Shown in pieces: positions 449-23,400 of a DNA stretch of 26,904 bases. A program made the position numbers and the translations under genes. Each line of letters begins with the position of its first letter. The first letter of the stretch is position 1. The notes below the pieces were generated by a model that was given only the letters and a program-made list of their open reading frames with translations, made no database searches and was not told the origin of the DNA. This DNA comes from a virus: positions 1 to 26,904 of IMG/VR virus record IMGVR_UViG_3300025117_000607, one strand, 5' to 3'.

Positions 449-712
449 ATGGAATCTAAGCCCAAGCCCCGAATCATAATGCACAATGACGGGCGGGTAT
501 GCTGGCCTGATGTCATACTCTATAGGTATTCAGATGACCCGCCGAATGTCTATCATGCTGTGCCGCCAAAAGTAGTTGAGCTCAACTACTCAGTGATAGT
601 ACTGGACCTGAACAAGCACCATGAGCTCCTTTGCTCTGGCGCGTTATTTAGCCGTGAGCATACGGGCTATTCAGGCTCGGTAGTTGATAATCGAAAGGGT
701 GGTCGTGGCTAA
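449..712 (+). CDS. Small hypothetical phage protein (87 aa)
   Basis: An ATG 7 bases after the pentapeptide stop opens an 87-residue frame. It ends at a TAA that overlaps the start region of the metalloprotease gene. The product is soluble, has no signal peptide or membrane segment, and ends in a basic, glycine-rich tail (DNRKGGRG). The sequence HNDGRVCWPDVILYRYSDD looks like a beta-rich small domain, but I do not recognise a family. Tight packing between two convincing genes on the same strand is the main argument that it is real. Its role is unknown. Confidence 0.6.
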   Translation: MESKPKPRIIMHNDGRVCWPDVILYRYSDDPPNVYHAVPPKVVELNYSVIVLDLNKHHELLCSGALFSREHTGYSGSVVDNRKGGRG

Positions 713-1844
713 ATTTGCTCGCGTGGTCAATGGGAATGCTTTTGGGCTAGGCAAGCCTACCCGCTACAATTCACGCAGACCTATGGGGCAATTTTGGGCT
801 CTGTTATGGGCACTAGCCCTTATAGCTATAGTACTGCTAGCCGCCTGTGGTCCTATTGTGAAATCACCGTTGATTTCAGATAAAGCTATAGAGCAGGAGG
901 CTTTGAAAGAGCGCTTCATCATTATTGAACAATTGCTACGTGAAGAAGCCCAGCTCCAGCGAGTGGCGTACAAGGTAATGACGGCCTCAACGCACCTGTG
1001 CCCTAAGACGCGGGGTGCTTTAGGCTTCACGCTCGCTAACAAGTTCAGCTTTGGTAGTGAATATGCATCAGCTATGGAACAGCTCTATTTCACAGATGGA
1101 CTTACAGTCAGTAGCATAGTCCTAGATTCCCCTGCCGTACGAGCTGGACTAAGAGCCGGTGATGCAATACTTACATTCAACGGCCAGAAGCTGGGCAGCG
1201 GTAAGGACAGCTTAGACCATGCAAGAACAGTGATAGATCAAAGGGTGCAGAACACGGCCGTTGAATTGCAGATACAGCGGAACGGCACACTATACGATAT
1301 AACCTTTGAACTTGAAACGGCGTGTAACTATCCCGTAGTGTTGACAAACAAAGGAATCATAAATGCGTTTACTGATGGTGCAGCCATCAGTATTGATACG
1401 GGCATGATGCGCTTCATTGATGGTGATGATGAACTAGCTATAATCATTGGGCATGAGGTCGCGCATAACATCATGGGTCACATTCCAAAGAAGTTCGCCA
1501 ACTTTGCACTCGGTGGGGTTATTGATCTAGCTTTGTTCCTGACGACGGGCTTTCAATCAACGGCCTTTGGCCAGATGTCAGCGCAGCTATTGCACAGCCA
1601 AGGATTTGAACTTGAAGCTGACTATATCGGATTGTACCTGACAGCTTTAGCTGGATATGAAATAAACAACGCAGCGCAACTATGGCGTAGAATGGGCGTA
1701 TTCCACCCACAATTCGTGACACCTAAAACATGGTCAACACACCCATCCAGCCCAGAACGCTTTGCGCAGCTTGAATCTACAATTGCTGAGATAATACAGA
1801 AGCGAAATGCCGGGGCTGTATTAATTCCAGAGGGTATAAAATGA
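705..1844 (+). CDS. PDZ-containing M48-family zinc metalloprotease, predicted lipoprotein
   Basis: The predicted product is an envelope-anchored zinc endopeptidase. Counting from the GTG at 705: a hydrophobic segment ends in a lipobox (LLAAC, Cys48), so the protein is probably lipid-anchored and faces the periplasm. A PDZ domain follows at about 103-200 (DSPAVRAGLRAGDAILTFNG). The M48 catalytic domain shows HEVAH (His250, Glu251, His254), the third-ligand segment FELEAD (Glu302) and the family's late HPSSPERF motif (346-353). All expected catalytic residues are present. The GTG has AAAGGG about 7 bases upstream and overlaps the previous stop; TTG at 684 and ATG at 783 are alternatives, the last giving a compact signal peptide. 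The downstream gene overlaps by ATGA. Bacterial relatives (BepA/LoiP type) do envelope quality control. As a phage accessory gene it could alter the lysogen's envelope, or act in exclusion or lysis; these roles are inference. Confidence 0.85.
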   Translation: MAKFARVVNGNAFGLGKPTRYNSRRPMGQFWALLWALALIAIVLLAACGPIVKSPLISDKAIEQEALKERFIIIEQLLREEAQLQRVAYKVMTASTHLCPKTRGALGFTLANKFSFGSEYASAMEQLYFTDGLTVSSIVLDSPAVRAGLRAGDAILTFNGQKLGSGKDSLDHARTVIDQRVQNTAVELQIQRNGTLYDITFELETACNYPVVLTNKGIINAFTDGAAISIDTGMMRFIDGDDELAIIIGHEVAHNIMGHIPKKFANFALGGVIDLALFLTTGFQSTAFGQMSAQLLHSQGFELEADYIGLYLTALAGYEINNAAQLWRRMGVFHPQFVTPKTWSTHPSSPERFAQLESTIAEIIQKRNAGAVLIPEGIK

Positions 1845-7892: not shown

Positions 7893-10800
7893 TTACACCC
7901 CTACCGCTCGCCAATTCACCGTTCCACCTATATTCGTACCGCTCGCACTGAACACATGCCCAACGAAGCCACTTGTAGTCACTGTTCCTAACCCTGGAAC
8001 CTTGGCCGATGCCTCAGCGTTCCAAATGCCTACAGCTGGTACTAAGGCAAAGTTCTTTGTGAAGTTCACCGTAGAGCCGCCAGAATTGATCGTGACTGTT
8101 TCAGCGTGCTCTTCACGTTCTTCCGCGTCTATTGTAGGATTGAACCCAGTCAGGCGCGTTATATCTGTGCCCGATGACATCTCAGATACGATGCGCGCCT
8201 TGACGTATTGAAGTGACCCTACATCGCCAACGGTCCAGTTCTCGAAGCCGTCATAGCTCCCGATCGAAGTCTTATAATCTATCTGGAGTTGGTAGTTTGC
8301 GGAACCAGAACTGACCGGGCCTAGATTAGCTGCGATATCGGCCCAGATGCGCGCACTTAAATCTGTACCGAGATCAATTTCTGGGGCCTCATAAATAGCT
8401 TGTGATACTGGACTATAGACATATGAATTGAAGACATTGAAGTCATTCCCAGAAGCGGTTATTGTAGAAAGTGGATTAAGATTTCCAGTGATTGGATTAC
8501 GATAAAACCCGCCCTCGTTCTTGTACTGATAAATTTTGTCATTGGTATTGCCCAAAACATAAGCAATCTGCATGTCCTCGGACAGCCTGAATGCTAAAGG
8601 CTGCGTATCTTGGCTGCTTGGGTTAAATTGAGTGGCATCATAATCTACTAAAGATAAATCCCAAGGAACACTCAGATGGTATTGATACACAGAAAAAGGA
8701 GTGTCTCCTAAAATAAATAATCGCCGACCATCTCTATAGAAATGATGATTTCTAGTTTGAGTGGTTTGTGGTGATAGGAAGGAAACGCCGTCATAGCTGG
8801 CTGTAGAAATTTGCCAAGCACTGGCAACTGAGTATTGAAATAACCTCTTAGGAAGGCCCGCTGTAGGAATCCCCGATACATAAAGTTTAGTCCCATCCAG
8901 CTTTAAAGAGATACCAATTTGGCCATCCGATATTTCAGCCGAAGTTGTAAATGATGTATTATCTAAGGTCGCCGTAGATATCTGCCAAGCACTAGATATA
9001 GAAAATTGATATATCTTCTGTGCTACATTATTCGTTACATAAAATTTGGTTCCATCGGGCTTTATAAAAAACCCACCTAATGTATCAAGAGCGCCAACAG
9101 GTAAAGTATAGGACACACCTTGATACGATGCTGTAGATATATCCCCAGATGTATTTAGACCATATTGATAGATTATTTTATTATTTTGGCCTAGAATATA
9201 AGCTTTAGTGCCATCTCCACTAAATCTTAAATCAATGACCTCTGAATTTTGTGAACTAACAGAAAAAGATTTAGATGCATAAGATACGCCAGCTATACTT
9301 CTATTAGTTTCCCAGTCTATCCACAGCGGACGTTGCTCATTTTCAGAGATCACATCAAACACATTAACAATCACTGTAGAGAACGTCTTAGCACTAGCCG
9401 AATAGTTCTCTGATGTATCCCGAGCCTTGATGCCAAACACCCATGCTACCTGAACACCGGATTCTGTTGGGGATGGTGGAACGGCAGCGGATGTGACCTG
9501 AGTGCCCCGCGTGACCGATGTAAGTGTAGTCGCGTCTTCCCAAACAAAAGGCGCTTTCATAAACCGGATTTCGTACCCGGATAGATCAATGTCAGTTACC
9601 TGAGACCACTTGAATACGACCGTGACGCCATTCTGTTGTGCTGTGAAGGTGGTGACATCCTCCGGCTTGGTTGTTTTGCCGATGACCGTATGTCCGGTGA
9701 CGGTCGTGTAAGCTGACTTGACGCCTAGTACATTGACTGAGCGCACGCGGACATCATAGGAAACGCCATCCTCGACATCCAATATCCAATTGACCGTGGC
9801 ACTGCCTGTAACGTTAGGCCCAGTTTCCCAGTTCGCAGCGACGTCAGCATCAGTGCTGCGCTTCCATTGGATTTCTATCTGACCGCCAGACGTGACAAAT
9901 GAATCAGCCGGTGCAGTCCAGGTTGCTTTGATGCGCGTGAAAACAGTGCCGTCTTCACGCAGGAACAGCTCATTCGTACCAGATGCAAGGACCAAGCTAG
10001 TGGGGGCAGCGACCGTGAATGGGTCTGGCAGCGTCGTGGTCTGTGCGGGTTGCATGACGGCTTCATCGGTGCCGGGCGTCCAAGCATAGACATTAGCGTC
10101 GATCTCTTTGATCTGAAGATCACAACCCAGCGTAGGACCTTCGCTACCGCTGCGAATGACAAATTTCCAGGAGCCTACTTCAAATGTCTTAGCATCCCAA
10201 CCGAATCTAGTGTGGTCTACATTTATTATGTCGAAGCCGAGTATCCGCATGGCTGTCAACTTGCACGGCCATGAACCTGATATCTGGCGACGGTTTCGTT
10301 CTAGATCGATACGCGCGATTCGCATCGCCATCGTCGGTGAATTCGTGTATGACAGATCGGCGTCACGCCAGAGCTCAGTCTCCTGGTCCTGCGTCACATA
10401 AGCCGCAACCTGTACAGGAGGAAAGTCAGTTGGTTGCCAGAGATCATCCGGGCTACTGAACACGCCTTTTACGCCGTTGAACAGATCGCGCCGTGAATTG
10501 CGGGTTTGAATGCTGACGCTCCCTGCTAGGTCCTCTTCAGTTATCGTGACTGTCGGGGCGCGCCAAGCACCGGCATAGAGTGTGATGGTCTTGCCGCTGG
10601 TAACACGCGAGCCCGCCATAGCTGAGAGGAGTTTCTTGAGCAGGTCTTCAGCATCCTGGCTGGTATCAATAGTACCATTCAAGGTGTAGCGGGGCTCGCC
10701 GGTAGCGAATATCAGGTGCGTGCCTGTACCGGCATCTGTAATATCAACGGCCGTTCCAGCTCTAGAATTCGCCAGTGACGTAGCAACCTTGCCTGTCGTT

Positions 10801-12023
10801 GAAGTGATGCCGATCCAATAGTAATCTGTGCCCGCACTCAAGCCAGTTGGCAAGGTATCGCTGGAAACTACATTCACGCGCGTTCCAGTACGAAGCTTCT
10901 GGATTGTATCCCCTACTGTAATGATATCAGTAGTCGCGGCTGTGAATGTCGTGACGCCCCTTAAAGTATGCGTGCCCGTACCAGCATCAATGATGTCAAT
11001 TGATGTACCGGCTAGAGCATCCGCCTTGCTGGTAGCGATCTTACCCGTCGTGGCACTTTGCCTGATCCAATAATAGGCCGTGTTGAGGGACATGCCTCCG
11101 GGCAACGTAGTCGTTGTCGTTGCGTAGATCGCCCACCCCGTTGGAATATCAATAGAGCAGGTTAGCAGATCAGTATCAGCGGCGGCTGTGAATGTGTATC
11201 CAGGGTTTCGCGCCTGGATTTCATCGCAGACATTCGCGGCGGCTTGGAGCGCCGTATCGTCTATGTTAGCGGCTGGCCAGTTATACCCGAATTCGTTCTT
11301 GAGCCAATCGGCGATGCATAACGCCGCATTATCAGTCCAGCCCGTGCTGGCGTCACGCGAGTCTAGAATATTGTCCTTGCCCCGCACGATCACAGAGATA
11401 TTAGGCAGCGACCCGCCCTTGAACTTATCAGCATCCCACTTGAGCTGGATATAGAGCTTGGCACAGCCAGTCTGCAAATGAGTGCCGCTCCATTTAGTAG
11501 CGCCTACGGCAGCGGTCAGTTCAGAGTGAAATGTAGAATCTCCAGCTGTGGTCCCTAACCCTAACCACGCGCTGACATTCCCCGCATATGTTCCTGTAGC
11601 GTCACCATTGGCATCGAGTGGGACTACTTCATCATTCAGAAGCAGAGCATCTAGCCTCGATACTCTATGCGTGGTTAGTGTCAGAACTACATGGAGCAAG
11701 TCATTATCGCTGGTCGTATGCAGAAAAGTTTGAGGCCCAGATACACGCATCCAGCCATAGACCATGCGTCGCGCGGTGATCGGCTGCCGAATCATACGTG
11801 TTCGATCAACAGCCGTATCAGCAAAATTGGGGATATTCGGCTTAGGGGGCTTCGGCGTCATTGCCATGGTAGCGAAGCCAACCGCTGCGACGGCTGCGAA
11901 CGCTACACCGGCTGCCAGCCATCCCGCCTCTATCAGCGTTGTGCTAAAGATCACGATACCGGCAGAGTATGCCGCTGAGGCTGCGAAGGTAGCGCCAACT
12001 AGAGCTACGACTGCGGGAGGCAT
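7893..12023 (-). CDS. gpJ-like tail-tip / host-specificity protein with FN3 domains and beta-propeller
   Basis: This 1376-residue protein is the tip attachment protein, the main candidate for contact with the host. A hydrophobic Ala/Gly-rich N-terminus (about 7-55) resembles gpI-type sequences. The gpJ core spans about 70-290 and 440-650 (MVYGWMRVSGPQTFLHT, ALCIADWLKNEFGYNWP, LFNGVKGVFSSPDDLWQ). A duplicated YYW module interrupts it at about 298-440. Two fibronectin-III-like domains follow (668-785 and 786-890), then five propeller blades (about 910-1170; AWQISTASYDG, DGTKLYVSG, YQYxLS). A beta-rich C-terminal end closes the protein (1215-1376). Its ATG overlaps the radical SAM stop as TAATG, so translation is coupled. 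The propeller segment is AT-rich relative to its flanks, suggesting exchange of a receptor-binding module. Confidence 0.88.
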   Translation of the reverse strand: MPPAVVALVGATFAASAAYSAGIVIFSTTLIEAGWLAAGVAFAAVAAVGFATMAMTPKPPKPNIPNFADTAVDRTRMIRQPITARRMVYGWMRVSGPQTFLHTTSDNDLLHVVLTLTTHRVSRLDALLLNDEVVPLDANGDATGTYAGNVSAWLGLGTTAGDSTFHSELTAAVGATKWSGTHLQTGCAKLYIQLKWDADKFKGGSLPNISVIVRGKDNILDSRDASTGWTDNAALCIADWLKNEFGYNWPAANIDDTALQAAANVCDEIQARNPGYTFTAAADTDLLTCSIDIPTGWAIYATTTTTLPGGMSLNTAYYWIRQSATTGKIATSKADALAGTSIDIIDAGTGTHTLRGVTTFTAATTDIITVGDTIQKLRTGTRVNVVSSDTLPTGLSAGTDYYWIGITSTTGKVATSLANSRAGTAVDITDAGTGTHLIFATGEPRYTLNGTIDTSQDAEDLLKKLLSAMAGSRVTSGKTITLYAGAWRAPTVTITEEDLAGSVSIQTRNSRRDLFNGVKGVFSSPDDLWQPTDFPPVQVAAYVTQDQETELWRDADLSYTNSPTMAMRIARIDLERNRRQISGSWPCKLTAMRILGFDIINVDHTRFGWDAKTFEVGSWKFVIRSGSEGPTLGCDLQIKEIDANVYAWTPGTDEAVMQPAQTTTLPDPFTVAAPTSLVLASGTNELFLREDGTVFTRIKATWTAPADSFVTSGGQIEIQWKRSTDADVAANWETGPNVTGSATVNWILDVEDGVSYDVRVRSVNVLGVKSAYTTVTGHTVIGKTTKPEDVTTFTAQQNGVTVVFKWSQVTDIDLSGYEIRFMKAPFVWEDATTLTSVTRGTQVTSAAVPPSPTESGVQVAWVFGIKARDTSENYSASAKTFSTVIVNVFDVISENEQRPLWIDWETNRSIAGVSYASKSFSVSSQNSEVIDLRFSGDGTKAYILGQNNKIIYQYGLNTSGDISTASYQGVSYTLPVGALDTLGGFFIKPDGTKFYVTNNVAQKIYQFSISSAWQISTATLDNTSFTTSAEISDGQIGISLKLDGTKLYVSGIPTAGLPKRLFQYSVASAWQISTASYDGVSFLSPQTTQTRNHHFYRDGRRLFILGDTPFSVYQYHLSVPWDLSLVDYDATQFNPSSQDTQPLAFRLSEDMQIAYVLGNTNDKIYQYKNEGGFYRNPITGNLNPLSTITASGNDFNVFNSYVYSPVSQAIYEAPEIDLGTDLSARIWADIAANLGPVSSGSANYQLQIDYKTSIGSYDGFENWTVGDVGSLQYVKARIVSEMSSGTDITRLTGFNPTIDAEEREEHAETVTINSGGSTVNFTKNFALVPAVGIWNAEASAKVPGLGTVTTSGFVGHVFSASGTNIGGTVNWRAVGV
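8516..9311 (-). other. AT-rich five-blade beta-propeller segment inside the tail-tip gene
   Basis: Residues about 905-1170 of the tail-tip protein consist of five related units, each with a strand like SFSVSSQ, an xDGTKxYVxG strand and an end like IYQYxLS followed by AWQISTA. Base composition changes sharply: three 60-base lines counted here (9001, 9121, 9181) have 20, 18 and 20 G+C (30-33%), against 33 of 60 at 9721 and 37 of 60 at 10561 in the same gene. The change coincides with the domain boundary. Confidence 0.8.
10704..11132 (-). repeat. Duplicated YYW module in the tail-tip protein
   Basis: Residues about 298-352 and 383-438 are two copies of one module: TLPxGxSxxTxYYWI, then TTGKxATSxAxxxAGTxxDI and DAGTGTHxL. 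The linkers (TFTAAxTD) also match. The copies have diverged in DNA, so this is an old internal duplication. The module interrupts the gpJ-like core and is probably a surface decoration domain. Confidence 0.82.
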
Positions 12024-13021
12024 TAGTGCACGCTCCCCATTAACTTTCGGGCTTCTTGTACCAATGCTCCGTGCACGAAGTTGACCTCACCAATGTCAGG
12101 CACGAACATACAAGTCGGGGGCGTATTCAACTCACCAAGATCAACTTCATCGATGCTGGGCCACCTGATGACACGGAAGGTGTTCCCACTGAGATTGAAC
12201 ATCAAGTGATAGGGATTGTTATCAGCGGGCATTAATTCACAGGGCCAGTTACGGGCGGCACAGCAGTCATGAAGAATGGGCAGAAAATCGGACAGGAAAA
12301 AGGATTCATCCCGGCAAAGACCGATCTTCGATGGGATCCTTATTCTAAAGTGATGAACGCGATCTTGATATGCCGCAGCGCTGTCCAATATCTCTGTGAG
12401 ATCATCGACCGTTCGCATAGTAAAGGATATATGGTCGATATAGACATTATGACGTGCCATAGCTTCAAGCGCAGCAAGCTTCGTTTCCCAACCCTTTACA
12501 TAACCTTTCGTATGAAGAGAGAAGCACACAGCATTCAAATTAGCGGCCATCAAGCGCCGGATATAATGGTCATCGTTCATACGAAGGCCGTTCGTATAAA
12601 TGTGCACGTGACGGCCGGTCTTTCTTATATTTGCTACGATGCGGGGAAGATCATCGCGCAACGTAGGCTCAGCGCCCATCAATATGATGCTGCGACCCCC
12701 TTCCACCCGCTCGACTACGTCCATGATTTCTGTTATTGAAGGGTCAGGTTTATGCCCAGGCATGTGATAGCAATGAGGGCAGCGGATATTGCAGCGATCC
12801 GTTACCGGCACCATGCACACATTGAATCTGGTCTTCCATGGTACAGGGTCTTGCATCGTGTGCATGAAGGCCCAAGCATCATGTGACCGCTCGATAAGCA
12901 CCGTCTGTATTCCATGCAGCTTGCATTCTTTAGCTAGATATAAGCCGCCCTCTGTCTCATAGATTTCAGCCGTCACGGGTTGGAGGCAGTCCCGGCAGAG
13001 TGAAGTGGTTTCCACAGTCAC
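12023..13021 (-). CDS. Radical SAM enzyme, COG1964-like, embedded in the tail-tip operon
   Basis: I choose GTG 13021: it overlaps the upstream TGA (GTGA) and has TGGAGAG about 7 bases upstream; ATG 13048 is possible but has no good RBS. The 332-residue product has an N-terminal metal-binding knuckle (SLCRDC, Cys9/Cys12; ECKLHG, Cys33/His36), then the radical SAM cluster motif DRCNIRCPHC (Cys77, Cys81, Cys84), MGAEPT (118-119, a GGEP-type SAM loop) and HIYTNGLR. The SLCxxC...CxxHG head plus TDRCNxxCPxC is typical of COG1964, the family of archaeal tetraether synthase and MJ0619. This copy is shorter and lacks a recognisable SPASM end. It would carry [4Fe-4S] and start radical chemistry on an unknown substrate. 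Its stop overlaps the tail-tip start (TAATG), so it is co-translated with virion genes. Confidence 0.87.
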   Translation of the reverse strand: MTVETTSLCRDCLQPVTAEIYETEGGLYLAKECKLHGIQTVLIERSHDAWAFMHTMQDPVPWKTRFNVCMVPVTDRCNIRCPHCYHMPGHKPDPSITEIMDVVERVEGGRSIILMGAEPTLRDDLPRIVANIRKTGRHVHIYTNGLRMNDDHYIRRLMAANLNAVCFSLHTKGYVKGWETKLAALEAMARHNVYIDHISFTMRTVDDLTEILDSAAAYQDRVHHFRIRIPSKIGLCRDESFFLSDFLPILHDCCAARNWPCELMPADNNPYHLMFNLSGNTFRVIRWPSIDEVDLGELNTPPTCMFVPDIGEVNFVHGALVQEARKLMGSVH

Positions 13022-13470
13022 CGTCCAACTCTCCAGGCACGGGAACATTGGGATATAGGAATCTTCGTTAAGCCAGCAGGCCCTACGAATAGCCCATATC
13101 GATTATCAAGCCCAATAAAGCCTAACGCTGGGGCTAGACCGCCGTCTGGCAGTTGTACTTCAGCCTCAACAATATCCCCACGTTGAGCGAAGGTTGCTTG
13201 TATTGGCTCGCTGCCCGTATGACTACGAAAGGCATCAGCCGCGTTCGGTAATTCAACCGCGCCGAATAGTACCTTCATACGTTTCGCGGCGCCGAGCGCC
13301 GTTGTGTATTTTCCACGGATGTTGGATGTGAAATCAGCTTTGAGAATTGCCTCAGCACAGCCTAGCGCACCTAATACACAATCATGCTCGCCCCATTTGA
13401 AAGGCTTATCCTGAATACTTCGAATATAAGCTTCCAATTCTTGGGGCCAGTTATCAACACGATCGAGCAT
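13018..13470 (-). CDS. DUF6950-type (NlpC/P60-like) tail assembly protein
   Basis: This 150-residue protein matches the phage pattern WPQELEAYIRSIQDKPFKWG-EHDC: the Cys of HDC is the expected active-site Cys of an NlpC/P60-like fold. A C-terminal GFIGLDNRYGLFVGPAGL and SQCSRAWRVG follow. Members sit just before gpJ-type genes and are thought to be tail-tip components or peptidoglycan-cutting aids for DNA entry. The second catalytic residue (His) is not obvious, so enzyme activity is uncertain. It starts directly after the preceding stop (TAGATG), and its own stop overlaps the radical SAM start. Confidence 0.77.
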   Translation of the reverse strand: MLDRVDNWPQELEAYIRSIQDKPFKWGEHDCVLGALGCAEAILKADFTSNIRGKYTTALGAAKRMKVLFGAVELPNAADAFRSHTGSEPIQATFAQRGDIVEAEVQLPDGGLAPALGFIGLDNRYGLFVGPAGLTKIPISQCSRAWRVGR

Positions 13471-14028
13471 CTACGCACCCCATATGAACTTCGCGTCTTG
13501 AAGCTGAGCGACGTATTCAAACCCCCGGTCGGTGGGATCAATCAACTTCTGGTCTTCAGGCGTATAGCGTCTGATACGATTCCTTGCCCAATCAACTTCA
13601 AGCGACTCGACCGTGATGCTGACCGTAGCGGTCTCGCCGCCGTCTTCCATAGTGGGCACATCAGTCAAGCCCTGGAATATCAGGAACGGATCAGCTATGA
13701 GCACGTTGCTGGCATTGAACGCAGCAAGATAAACCGATGCCGTTCGGCCTTGCTGCATCGAATTCAAAGTCAAGGACAAGAGTGCTGACGGAATACCCGA
13801 CAGCGTGAGTGTGATACCTGTTGACTTGAAGTCAGCGGTCTCTTCAATCTCCGAGATTGAACCGAGCGTGCCTATGCCCGTATAAGTATTCCCACTCCAG
13901 ATCAGATCACCGATGCCGCTCCAAACCCGCGTTGTGCCCGCTGAGGTTTCAAGCTCAACGAAGAATGCCGGATAGACGACTGAAGCTAATGTTGCCGTCT
14001 CTAACGCCGCTGTTATGCCCCGACTCAT
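13471..14028 (-). CDS. Tail-tip / hub protein (DUF2163-like)
   Basis: The ATG overlaps the upstream stop by ATGA. The 185-residue product reads VVYPAFFVELETSAGTTRVW, WSGNTYTGIGTLGSIS, EDGGETATVSITVESLEVD and RRYTPEDQKLIDPTDRGFEY. I recognise this combination (ELDF-like strand, IEDGGETA, RRYTxEDQ) from phage tail-tip proteins that lie between the distal tail protein and the DUF6950 gene. By position it is a hub or tip-ring component. It is entirely beta-rich with no catalytic motif. Confidence 0.75.
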   Translation of the reverse strand: MSRGITAALETATLASVVYPAFFVELETSAGTTRVWSGIGDLIWSGNTYTGIGTLGSISEIEETADFKSTGITLTLSGIPSALLSLTLNSMQQGRTASVYLAAFNASNVLIADPFLIFQGLTDVPTMEDGGETATVSITVESLEVDWARNRIRRYTPEDQKLIDPTDRGFEYVAQLQDAKFIWGA

Positions 14029-14657
14029 GGGTTCAACGCCTCAGTCGCAGCAATTGTAATGCCATAATTCACGGCATTCGTAATGTCCCAGGCTGACTCA
14101 TTGCTTGCCAGCCGCCAAATACCGTGGGCGCTATTAACCGTGACCGTAGCCCCGCTGGCTGGGGCGGGGATGCGAATGCGTGGCCATAAGGTAAGGCTGG
14201 CCACCCCGCCAGAATCCGTGCCTGTAGCGAGCAAATTTTTGTACAGGCGGGGCTGTGGGTTAGTGCCTGAAATTATAGAGAGCCAGTCCCCCGCTTTTAG
14301 GATATTTGCCAGACTCGCGGTCCAGCCTGTAGTGACTAGAACTTGACCTGACTGGCTTGCTGATCTTATTATCGGCGTTCCTGTCGCGGTGCCTAGCGGG
14401 GTGCTGCCATCCGGAGGCGCGAACTTGAACGTACCTTCACCGCCATTAAGCAGCCCAAGAAACGCAATGACGTCCTCCAAGGTCTGGCGTGGGCCGGGAA
14501 GTACGGATATTTCCATATCCCACCACTGGCCTGGATGGACGTAGACCTGCTCACCGTGCGTGAATGGGGATATTGACCGGGCCACAATGGTCTTCATAGT
14601 GTAATGAATGTCAGCAGCGATAAGCGCAGCGGGCGGATCAATAGGGTACGTAGTCAT
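14025..14657 (-). CDS. Distal-tail-like protein
   Basis: This 210-residue protein overlaps the tape measure stop by ATGA and lies in the usual distal-tail position, next after the tape measure. Diagnostic pieces are LNGGEGTFKFAPPDGSTPLG, the middle strand GTATGTPIIRSASQSGQVLV, GWTASLANILKAGDWLSI and ASGATVTVNSAHGIWRLASN. These recur in phage proteins I know as Dit-like or tail-tip connectors. Dit proteins form the ring joining the tube to the tip. I rate the structural role high and the exact Dit label moderate. Confidence 0.74.
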   Translation of the reverse strand: MTTYPIDPPAALIAADIHYTMKTIVARSISPFTHGEQVYVHPGQWWDMEISVLPGPRQTLEDVIAFLGLLNGGEGTFKFAPPDGSTPLGTATGTPIIRSASQSGQVLVTTGWTASLANILKAGDWLSIISGTNPQPRLYKNLLATGTDSGGVASLTLWPRIRIPAPASGATVTVNSAHGIWRLASNESAWDITNAVNYGITIAATEALNP

Positions 14658-20421: not shown

Positions 20422-23400
20422 TTACCAATGTTCCTGTGCCTGAAGCGGCATCATGCGCTCTTTCAAACGGTACTCGATCTCGATGCGGGCCTCTTCATAG
20501 TCAGCGAAGCGTGCAACGATGGGCTGCGGAACCTGACCATTGTGCAGATTGTCACCCTTGCCGTCCCGGTTGGCACCGACTGTGAACACGACATCGATGC
20601 CACGACCCAGAACCTGGAGTGCTTGCGTATAGTATTGCAGGCTATCGATGTTCGTGTATTTGATCTTGCCAAGAAAGTGCTCGCGATAGAGCTGCACGAC
20701 TTCCTCTGCTAAAGCCCGTACCTCAGTCGTCACATTGCCGTTGCTTTGCTGAAGCTGATATTGAGCTAGCAGCATATTGTCACGCATGACAAAATGCTTC
20801 TGAAGCAGCCGTGTAGGATGGTCTCGCCTATCCATATCAAGTAGCGGCTTGTTACGAATGAAGCGTTGCCGCCTGATACTCTCATCGAGATAGCCAATAT
20901 GTGCGATGTTCACATCTGGCAGGATGAGGACTTCGCCGGGGCCTTCATTCAAGTCAAGCTCAGGGTGCTCGTGGATGCGTCCGATGAACTTCATCGATTT
21001 GCCTTTGAGACCGCCTTCGTATGGGTACGGCGAGCGGCGGAAACAGCGCACGGGCATGTCAGGGGAAAAACCAGCATCGATGGCGAAGTGGTGCTGCCTG
21101 ATTGAAAGGCCGTGCCATACTGACTGGCGAAGGTATTTCCGCAGGAACATGCCGCCAAGCAGCTTCTCGTCAGTGTCGATCCACAGCACCCAATCCATGG
21201 AACAGCCCGCTAGGGCCTCGTTTCGAGGCACATCAAAACCGCTGACCGTTGGATCAGAGCCCTTGACCAGCTTCGCACCGTACTTCTTAGCAATAGCCTT
21301 GGCATCTCCAGACATGCCCGTATCAGCGATGACTATTTCATCGATGTAGGGTTGCACAGATTTCAGACACCAGCCAAGGGTCAGCTCAGCCTCACGGCCA
21401 GCAATTATGCACGCAGATATGGTTTGACGCGGGCGCTGTAAGCGAAGCTTCCTGTCCCAGTCAATCCTACCAGTGGGCTTTTGATCGGCACGGTACGTGA
21501 CCAGATAGTATCCGATCATATCACCGGTAACAGAATTCGGATAGATCACACCAGATGTCATTGCGAAGTCTGGCTTGCTGCCGAACATATCCCGCAGGTC
21601 ATGCTGGTCGAACTCCCAGATATGACCACGGAACCCGTCCCAGTTCGGTGTGCCATACTCGGACGTGCCGAATGGCACCGTGAGTATGACGCTACCACCC
21701 GGTTTGATGTGCTGTTCAAGCGAATCCATAACAGCGTACGGATCGGGGCAATGCTCCAGCACTTCACTGATCAACAGGCAATCATAGGGGGCTTTCGAAG
21801 CAGGCACCGCAGTCTGATCACCGACTACGAACTCGAACTCAGCATTACCACGGCCAAACTTTTCAGCGAAGGTCTTGGCCCATTTGATCGCACCTGGATC
21901 AATGTCAAGGGCAGTCCAGCTACGGCCCAGCTTGTTAGCGAAGTAGACCGTTGACCAACCATGCCCGCACCCGAATTCTAGAATGTTCTGGAGTTCAGGG
22001 TGCTGTTCCAAGAATGCTTGGATGTTCAGAAAGCGTTGCTCACCTGTGTTCTCGAACATCGGTGCATGAGCTTCGAGCGGTACAGAGCTCAGTCGTTTGT
22101 CAGTTTCCTTTCCCGCTGCCAGATAGTGCTTTCGATAGCGCTCGGTGCCGAGGGTGAATGCATACTCGTCTTGGACCTTGTTTAGAAGTATGTTTGCAGC
22201 CGGAGAGCCATCATCCAGATTATCAAGGCGTCCAAGAACTTCACGCACTGCTCCAATATCACTGCGCTGATAAAAGTGATGGGCAAGACGCACAGGGTCG
22301 TCATTGAACGTATCGAACAGGGTATCGAACCAGGAGCTCCACTCCTGGGCCACTCCAGCCCATCCCAGGTTGGCTGAATGGGCCATGCCCGCTAGGGCTG
22401 CCCGGTTATAAGCTTCCTCATCTCCAGCGAGCCTTAAAACCGCCCCTGTAAAGGCATCCCGGTAGGCATCAGACCAAGGGTCGCCGTCAATAAGCACGCC
22501 AGCATCGGGATGAAGCGTTTCAGGCAGCGCCCCGCGTGCGCTCGTAACGACCGGCATTCCGCACGCTTGGGATTCCATGATCGATATACACGAAACCTCC
22601 GTAAAAGTCGGGGACGTGGGCGAAGGTGTCGGGTAGGCATAGATGCCCGATTCAGCGTATTGCTTATAGAGTTCATCTTTCGGAAGATAGCCGACGAACC
22701 TGACCTTATCACCGAACTGTGCCGCCTGCTGTTTCAAGCCAGCATAGAACGCGGCCATATGCTCAACAGGATTGTTATAGCCATAGAGCGCGAGCTCAAA
22801 CTCAGGGTCTTTGGCCAAGAGCGCTGGAAGGATACTGCTGAGCATGACATCAAGGCCACGCTCAGGGCGTGCTGAGTACACGAGGCGTTTGCGCAACTTC
22901 TTGGTCAGATCAACCTTGGGAATACGGAACAGATCGATCCCATTACGTGAAGCATAGACCGTTTCATCAGGCAAACCATAGACCTTGCGATACTGCGTCT
23001 TCATGTAGTTGCTGACCGTGATGAACCTGTCAATGTTCCATGACAAGGCACGGAAGGTATCAGCAACTCGGCCCAGAGCTAGGTCATGGCACCAGAGAAG
23101 GTTGATGCGTGCGTTGATGCTGGACTTGAACGGGCCTGGATCGCGCTGCACGATTGCGATATCAGCGGGCATTTGCTGGAGCGCGTGCTCAGCATAGCTG
23201 ATGTGAACGTACAGCACGCCATCATACATGCCGGGCTTCTCACATTCACAGAACATGCGAACGGAGTGCCCGAGCTTGGCCAGCTCACGTGCCATGCAGA
23301 TTGCAGCGGTTTCGCTTCCCCCAAGAGAGGAAGTCTCAAGGGTGTCACCCTGGAAGCGCATACCAGGAACCACCATGATGATTGTGTACTTGTCGCGCAT
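20422..23400 (-). CDS. Three-domain GT4 glycosyltransferase-methyltransferase-GT2 glycosyltransferase fusion
   Basis: The 992-residue protein combines three enzymes. Residues 1-370 are a GT-B fold GT4 transferase (LGGSETAAICMAREL at 26-40, SARPERGLDVML, ExxxxxxxE pair Glu268/Glu276 in FTEVSCISIMESQACGMPVV). Residues 445-640 are a class I SAM methyltransferase (LEFGCGHGWST at 474-484, ALDIDPGAI, SEVLEHCPDP, KPGGSVILTVPFG). Residues 659-850 are a GT-A fold GT2 transferase (ISACIIAGREAELTLGWCLK, DEIVIADTGMSGDA, DTD at 742-744). A helical tail follows. It would build a methylated glycan on an unknown acceptor, with both transferases and the methylase in one chain. It lies inside the structural operon between small head genes and the neck genes. 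All key motifs are intact. Acceptor and sugars cannot be read from sequence. Confidence 0.9.
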   Translation of the reverse strand: MRDKYTIIMVVPGMRFQGDTLETSSLGGSETAAICMARELAKLGHSVRMFCECEKPGMYDGVLYVHISYAEHALQQMPADIAIVQRDPGPFKSSINARINLLWCHDLALGRVADTFRALSWNIDRFITVSNYMKTQYRKVYGLPDETVYASRNGIDLFRIPKVDLTKKLRKRLVYSARPERGLDVMLSSILPALLAKDPEFELALYGYNNPVEHMAAFYAGLKQQAAQFGDKVRFVGYLPKDELYKQYAESGIYAYPTPSPTSPTFTEVSCISIMESQACGMPVVTSARGALPETLHPDAGVLIDGDPWSDAYRDAFTGAVLRLAGDEEAYNRAALAGMAHSANLGWAGVAQEWSSWFDTLFDTFNDDPVRLAHHFYQRSDIGAVREVLGRLDNLDDGSPAANILLNKVQDEYAFTLGTERYRKHYLAAGKETDKRLSSVPLEAHAPMFENTGEQRFLNIQAFLEQHPELQNILEFGCGHGWSTVYFANKLGRSWTALDIDPGAIKWAKTFAEKFGRGNAEFEFVVGDQTAVPASKAPYDCLLISEVLEHCPDPYAVMDSLEQHIKPGGSVILTVPFGTSEYGTPNWDGFRGHIWEFDQHDLRDMFGSKPDFAMTSGVIYPNSVTGDMIGYYLVTYRADQKPTGRIDWDRKLRLQRPRQTISACIIAGREAELTLGWCLKSVQPYIDEIVIADTGMSGDAKAIAKKYGAKLVKGSDPTVSGFDVPRNEALAGCSMDWVLWIDTDEKLLGGMFLRKYLRQSVWHGLSIRQHHFAIDAGFSPDMPVRCFRRSPYPYEGGLKGKSMKFIGRIHEHPELDLNEGPGEVLILPDVNIAHIGYLDESIRRQRFIRNKPLLDMDRRDHPTRLLQKHFVMRDNMLLAQYQLQQSNGNVTTEVRALAEEVVQLYREHFLGKIKYTNIDSLQYYTQALQVLGRGIDVVFTVGANRDGKGDNLHNGQVPQPIVARFADYEEARIEIEYRLKERMMPLQAQEHW

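Follow-up and report, generated by a model that had tools for sequence, protein, structure and literature searches.

Besides its rubredoxin motif, C9X2C12X20C33X2H36, the tetraether synthase Tes (GDGT-MAS) has two auxiliary [4Fe-4S] clusters, of which one is active in its chemistry (PMC9433317). In pelagimyophages, a host-recognition island contains tail fibres, LPS genes, and radical SAM cassettes (PMC7029224). We analysed a viral stretch of 26,904 bases from an IMG/VR record, here called the window, in which a gene predicted to encode a small radical SAM enzyme lies inside the tail operon. No description of such a system was found in the literature under open licence. The features that the text refers to are listed below, with residue numbers given for the 341-aa form of the protein.

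7893..12023, minus: gpJ-like tail tip/host-specificity protein, 1376 aa (phrog_5616 9e-66, phrog_31 6e-52)
12023..13021, minus: radical SAM gene, GTG start, 332 aa (PF04055 and PF23545), identical in a second contig
12023..12343, minus: C-terminal region of the radical SAM protein, residues 236-341 and stop, with the motifs RIRxxSxIG, DNxYH, RxIxW, and NF and conserved columns
12662..12679, minus: MGAEPT, a GGEP-type motif with the family-typical Ala, residues 124-129
12770..12793, minus: CNIRCPHC, SAM-binding [4Fe-4S] site predicted from the three-cysteine motif, residues 86-93
12914..12997, minus: N-terminal rubredoxin-like knuckle CX2C-X20-CX2H, with ligands C18, C21, C42, and H45
13018..13470, minus: DUF6950 tail gene, the upstream partner (PF22262 1.1e-31), its TGA inside GTGA
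13471..14028, minus: DUF2163/GTA gp13-like tail protein, no cysteines (phrog_2048 9.8e-52)
14025..14657, minus: distal tail protein (phrog_1302 2.6e-22)
20422..23400, minus: GT4 - methyltransferase - GT2-like fusion (GT-MT-GT gene), 992 aa, named from Pfam and PHROG, in the head-tail part of the operon

The radical SAM gene and its place in the tail operon

An earlier note on this DNA had placed a radical SAM gene between a DUF6950 and a gpJ-like gene, joined to them by GTGA and TAATG overlaps. This was borne out on the minus strand; the plus strand of 12023-13021 contains stop codons throughout. The DRCNIRCPHC, MGAEPT, and SLCRDC...CKLHG motifs that it had picked out are all present in the translation of the minus-strand open reading frame, and the Pfam match to DUF6950 and the phrog_31 and phrog_5616 matches agree with the identities it gave to the flanking genes. 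The open reading frame has an alternative ATG start that would extend it to 12023-13048 (-) and 341 aa. We favour the GTG start because it alone has a GGAG 8-11 nt upstream, while the ATG at 13048 has no clear ribosome-binding site. The start of the radical SAM gene overlaps the DUF6950 stop in GTGA (13021-13018), and its stop overlaps the gpJ start in TAATG (12025-12021), with GGGGAG upstream of the gpJ start. A second contig, IMGVR_UViG_3300002097_000277, is identical to the window over the whole gene and both joins, which rules out the assembly error that had been named beforehand as grounds for refutation. Over the 12.5 kb compared, the two contigs show 22 differences, all of them in a 240-bp patch of gpJ (11043-11281) and 19 of them synonymous. 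The pattern resembles recombination over a short tract or a mixture of strains close to the end of the contig.

Both genes were found in 17 of 18 related contigs, and in these 17 DUF6950 leads directly into gpJ, with the enzyme absent. The enzyme is also absent from Roseobacter phage CRP-811, where DUF6950 and gpJ overlap by 4 nt, and from a 61-kb relative sharing the GT-MT-GT gene, where the two are 3 nt apart. Within the window operon itself, many neighbouring genes overlap or abut. Judged from these sequences, the radical SAM gene is a precise, moron-like insertion between DUF6950 and gpJ, and these two genes evidently do not need the enzyme in related phages. Because relatives lack the enzyme and overlaps are general in the operon, the overlaps point to neat insertion and shared late expression, not to a specific partnership with the tail tip. 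The description of the gene as "locked" to host recognition was thus overstated, the more so since family members occur beside unrelated genes.

The earlier note had suggested a tail-tip protein, a virion glycan, or a host surface lipid or polymer as the target of the enzyme. On the first of these readings, DUF6950 or gpJ would be modified co-translationally. The position of the gene, its overlaps on both sides, and its late expression fit this idea, as do the Mtd-type fibre genes found near many family members. However, the 17 related contigs, CRP-811, and the 61-kb relative have these tail proteins but no enzyme, overlaps are not particular to this gene, and the protein has neither a SPASM domain (Pfam) nor auxiliary-cluster cysteines. 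We therefore regard modification of a tail protein as doubtful. The absence of the gene from relatives and the long end branch of the protein in our tree would also be consistent with neutral cargo, recently acquired and of no benefit to the phage. This is very unlikely given that the catalytic and knuckle ligands are all intact, the start and stop are fitted to both neighbours, the gene is intact in two assemblies, and its GC content (0.497) equals that of gpJ (0.497).

Two other candidates were rejected. In phage lambda, gpL is an iron-sulfur tail-tip protein, and a helper for such a protein was discarded because the DUF2163 protein of the window has no cysteine. An RNA element was discarded because there was no Rfam match.

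Across about 17 related viral contigs, the GT-MT-GT gene belongs to the syntenic core, with 30-59% identity. This suggests that glycosylation of the virion or of a surface is a standing trait of the phage group, and the fusion is a possible partner pathway of the radical SAM enzyme. By eye, the DUF6950 protein has NlpC/P60-like HDC and RGDIV motifs and no clear catalytic histidine. Elsewhere in the window, 684-1844 (+) is predicted to encode a PDZ and M48 metallopeptidase with a lipoprotein-like start, on the strand opposite the structural operon, and there is a pentapeptide-repeat-like run at the window edge (1-200, +).

Domains, conserved residues, and predicted fold

The window protein matched Radical_SAM (PF04055) at 1.8e-17 and 64.4 bits (curated cut-off 29.5) and Zn_ribbon_HMPTM (PF23545) at 4.1e-13 and 49.1 bits (curated cut-off 27) in Pfam. 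Both matches are far beyond chance, and the first upholds the radical SAM identity that had been read from the motifs. The three-cysteine site in CNIRCPHC shows no variation among 16 aligned members or among 57 dereplicated viral ones. The GAE of MGAEPT is likewise invariant in the viral family, and each of the four knuckle ligands is at least 95% conserved across it. The only fully conserved cysteines among the 57 dereplicated members are 18, 21, 42, 86, 90, and 93. The window protein retains 45 of 65 near-invariant family positions, including all cluster and knuckle ligands. Its departures include NH179-180 to HT, KQ189-190 to TK, and R244 to L, and with several near-invariant residues changed, it may act on a different substrate from the rest of the family.

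An AlphaFold2 model from a 16-row alignment had a mean pLDDT of 84. The best fold match of this model was Tes/GDGT-MAS (7tom/7tol; E 6e-16, TM-score 0.72-0.74 by query length), and the next families fell to E 4e-7. Tes was also the best profile match of the protein. Among NCBIfam models the best match was TrsS (NF045646), which at 97.5 bits was far below its cut-off of 490, and Tes (NF045702), at 79.2 bits, was likewise far below its cut-off of 450. The earlier note had likened the protein to COG1964 and Tes. Kinship with this group stands, on the PF23545 match and the fold and profile matches to Tes, but these NCBIfam scores do not support membership in the studied equivalogs. No auxiliary-cluster cysteines were found in the C-terminal region of the window protein. 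Because both auxiliary [4Fe-4S] clusters of Tes are missing, carbon-carbon chemistry of the Tes type is not transferable to it; the suggested analogy with "demanding carbon-carbon chemistry" fails, and identity as a tetraether synthase was rejected.

Neither a SPASM domain (Pfam) nor an RRE was found in the window protein. The case for the enzyme maturing a small RiPP-like peptide directed against competitors or the host consists of the several radical SAM families that mature peptides and of weak matches, by fold or profile, to SuiB and SkfB. With no RRE or SPASM domain, and with neither join leaving space for a distinct precursor gene, we consider such a role extremely improbable; identity as a RiPP maturase was rejected because the SPASM domain and auxiliary-cluster cysteines are missing. 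By contrast, the domain matches, the model, and the joins make it nearly certain, in our judgement, that the gene encodes a small radical SAM enzyme and was inserted without a scar.

A family of related proteins in uncultured viruses

Single-sequence scans of viral and genome contigs returned the near-identical contig or nothing, and a first profile built with haloarchaeal relatives missed the viral family. A hand-made pattern, CNxxCPHCYH, matched at least 119 stretches in viral contigs, a lower bound for a family fixed by its CPHCYH motif. Among the matches listed, 80 of 80 encode relatives of the window protein, most over about 335 residues. The relatives in viral contigs are full-length and mostly 28-35% identical over about 335 aa (E to 1e-61), and a profile scan found at least 205 of them in IMG/VR. 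They have a common signature consisting of CX2C-X20-CX2H, DRCNxxCPHCYHxP, GAEP, RIRxGSxIGR, DNxYH, RxIxW, and TNFLHQ. In the tree, the window protein joins the viral family as its first branch (SH-aLRT 100) with cellular proteins on the other side, although its long end branch makes its exact place less sure than this support suggests.

A tblastn search of 50,697 deposited phage records gave no convincing match, only weak matches to the core, and the outcome was the same with a typical member as query. The family profile gave no match at E <= 1e-28 in 398 Pseudomonadota genomes (outside that phylum: 4 single genomes). Cellular homologues aligned to this profile over about 180 positions at about 90 bits, versus 426-577 bits for viral members. 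Matches in plasmids and genomes were mostly to Tes-like proteins of about 470-520 aa that are similar over the N-terminal half only. Residues 179-341 alone gave chance-level matches in phages (E 6-8) and none in plasmids. A TS-12 phage match was set aside as a MoaA-type enzyme beside a MoeB-like gene (named by eye). From sequence comparison, then, the window protein is the deepest branch of a large unnamed family found here only in uncultured viruses, and it is this family, with the window protein at its base, that is new here. A survey of Baltic viruses reported 261 "ahbD" genes, with only three contigs passing its domain check (PMC9301287). Some of these genes may belong to the viral Tes-like radical SAM family.

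We surveyed the neighbourhoods of 61 dereplicated loci. In large contigs, which we call marine from a reading of gene content and literature, a common cassette consists of an opposite-strand 267-aa protein, a kinase-like protein (its profile match to protein kinases is weak), a protein of 184 aa, and the radical SAM enzyme; two B12-type radical SAM genes often follow downstream. A tail-fibre gene with Mtd_N (tropism determinant) is present in 31 of 50 records. The enzyme lies within 8 kb of it in 24 of these 31, versus 9.3 expected at random placement. Given that these are related contigs, with distances of two typical sizes (1.1-1.7 kb and 5.1-5.9 kb), the association probably represents few effective events, and the shuffle p-value is not to be read literally. 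Other members adjoin thyX-/nrdA-like genes or a terminase-like gene, or lie near a ligase-like gene (named by eye), and because of these members a surface role is not general in the family.

Some neighbourhoods are richer in enzymes. Several viral islands (L230, L236, L244, L261, and others) contain kinase-like, aspartyl-hydroxylase-like (by eye), and B12 radical SAM genes together with tryptophan halogenase, amidinotransferase-like, and class III aminotransferase genes. Read in part by eye, such gene sets make up a putative biosynthetic island. One deep-branching member (L299, 2904-8625) is found between thyX-like and nrdA-like genes that are followed by IscU/IscA-like Fe-S assembly genes (by eye).

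The enzyme might instead be an auxiliary metabolic enzyme for a nucleotide, a cofactor, or a small molecule, with its place in the tail operon accidental. The thyX/nrdA and Fe-S assembly setting of the L299 relative fits this explanation, as do the marine islands with aminotransferase, halogenase, B12-type radical SAM, and kinase-like genes. The nearest studied kind of enzyme also includes lipid and pterin enzymes. However, late tail expression would be ill-timed for host takeover, and the sharp drop in fold score after Tes disfavours a MoaA- or QueE-like function. We consider auxiliary metabolism rather unlikely for the window gene.

A proposed role and its relation to known systems

Our best explanation as a whole, held tentatively and with somewhat less than even confidence, is that a radical SAM enzyme of this virus family carries out late tailoring of a surface glycan or polymer. 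Given its scarless insertion between DUF6950 and gpJ, we expect the enzyme to be produced together with the late proteins of the tail. By analogy with the superfamily, an electron would pass via the rubredoxin-like site to the [4Fe-4S] cluster, SAM would be split to give a 5'-deoxyadenosyl radical, and the radical would take a hydrogen from a substrate beneath the C-terminal cap. The least secure step is the substrate, which may be a glycan or another polymer on a surface where phage and host meet, whether in the host envelope or as a virion decoration. We infer this from the expected late expression, the islands for host recognition, and the conservation of the GT-MT-GT gene in this phage group; against it, the enzyme is missing from relatives that have this same gene. 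The gene would be a late moron that alters the receptor or surface, not a tail assembly factor. A surface-polymer function of this kind is possible but uncertain. It is unlikely, though conceivable, that a large virus-only family of minimal Tes-like enzymes, unseen in cultured phages, remodels the phage-host interface more widely, acting on a receptor polymer or a receptor-binding protein and having come to lie independently beside host-recognition genes in both T4-like marine phages and the siphovirus-type phage studied here.

Radical SAM genes in viruses are often assigned to auxiliary metabolism with no substrate named. The present family is coherent: it has fold features and a sequence signature of its own, and its cassettes recur, so that it can be given a name, looked for in other data, and put to the test. 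If its members act on surface polymers or tail fibres, they would give phages a chemical route to alter host recognition; if on nucleotides or cofactors, they would account for a gene that is common in marine phages and has lacked an explanation. That the family is absent from the deposited phage records shows how large a part of phage diversity escapes isolate collections.

The likeness to TrsS is confined to the N-terminal half, with the radical SAM core as the best-matching stretch. With Tes, the window protein shares identical CX2C-X20-CX2H spacing in the knuckle followed by the radical SAM core, and by its spacing R237..S240 probably corresponds to Q268..S271 of Tes. The two differ in length (526 aa for Tes, 332-341 aa for the window protein), in the [Fe4S4]N and [Fe4S4]C ligands, which the window protein lacks, and in GAEP, which replaces GGEP. 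In its setting, the gene resembles the siphovirus tail-operon morons lom, bor, and cor, which are, like it, accessory genes inserted in the late tail region. These encode small envelope proteins, unlike the predicted iron-sulfur enzyme of the window. The pelagimyophage cassettes, compared by setting, likewise place radical SAM genes with tail fibres in a variable island of the structural region, but those phages are contractile and T4-like with large islands, whereas the window has a single gene inside a tail operon (PMC7029224).
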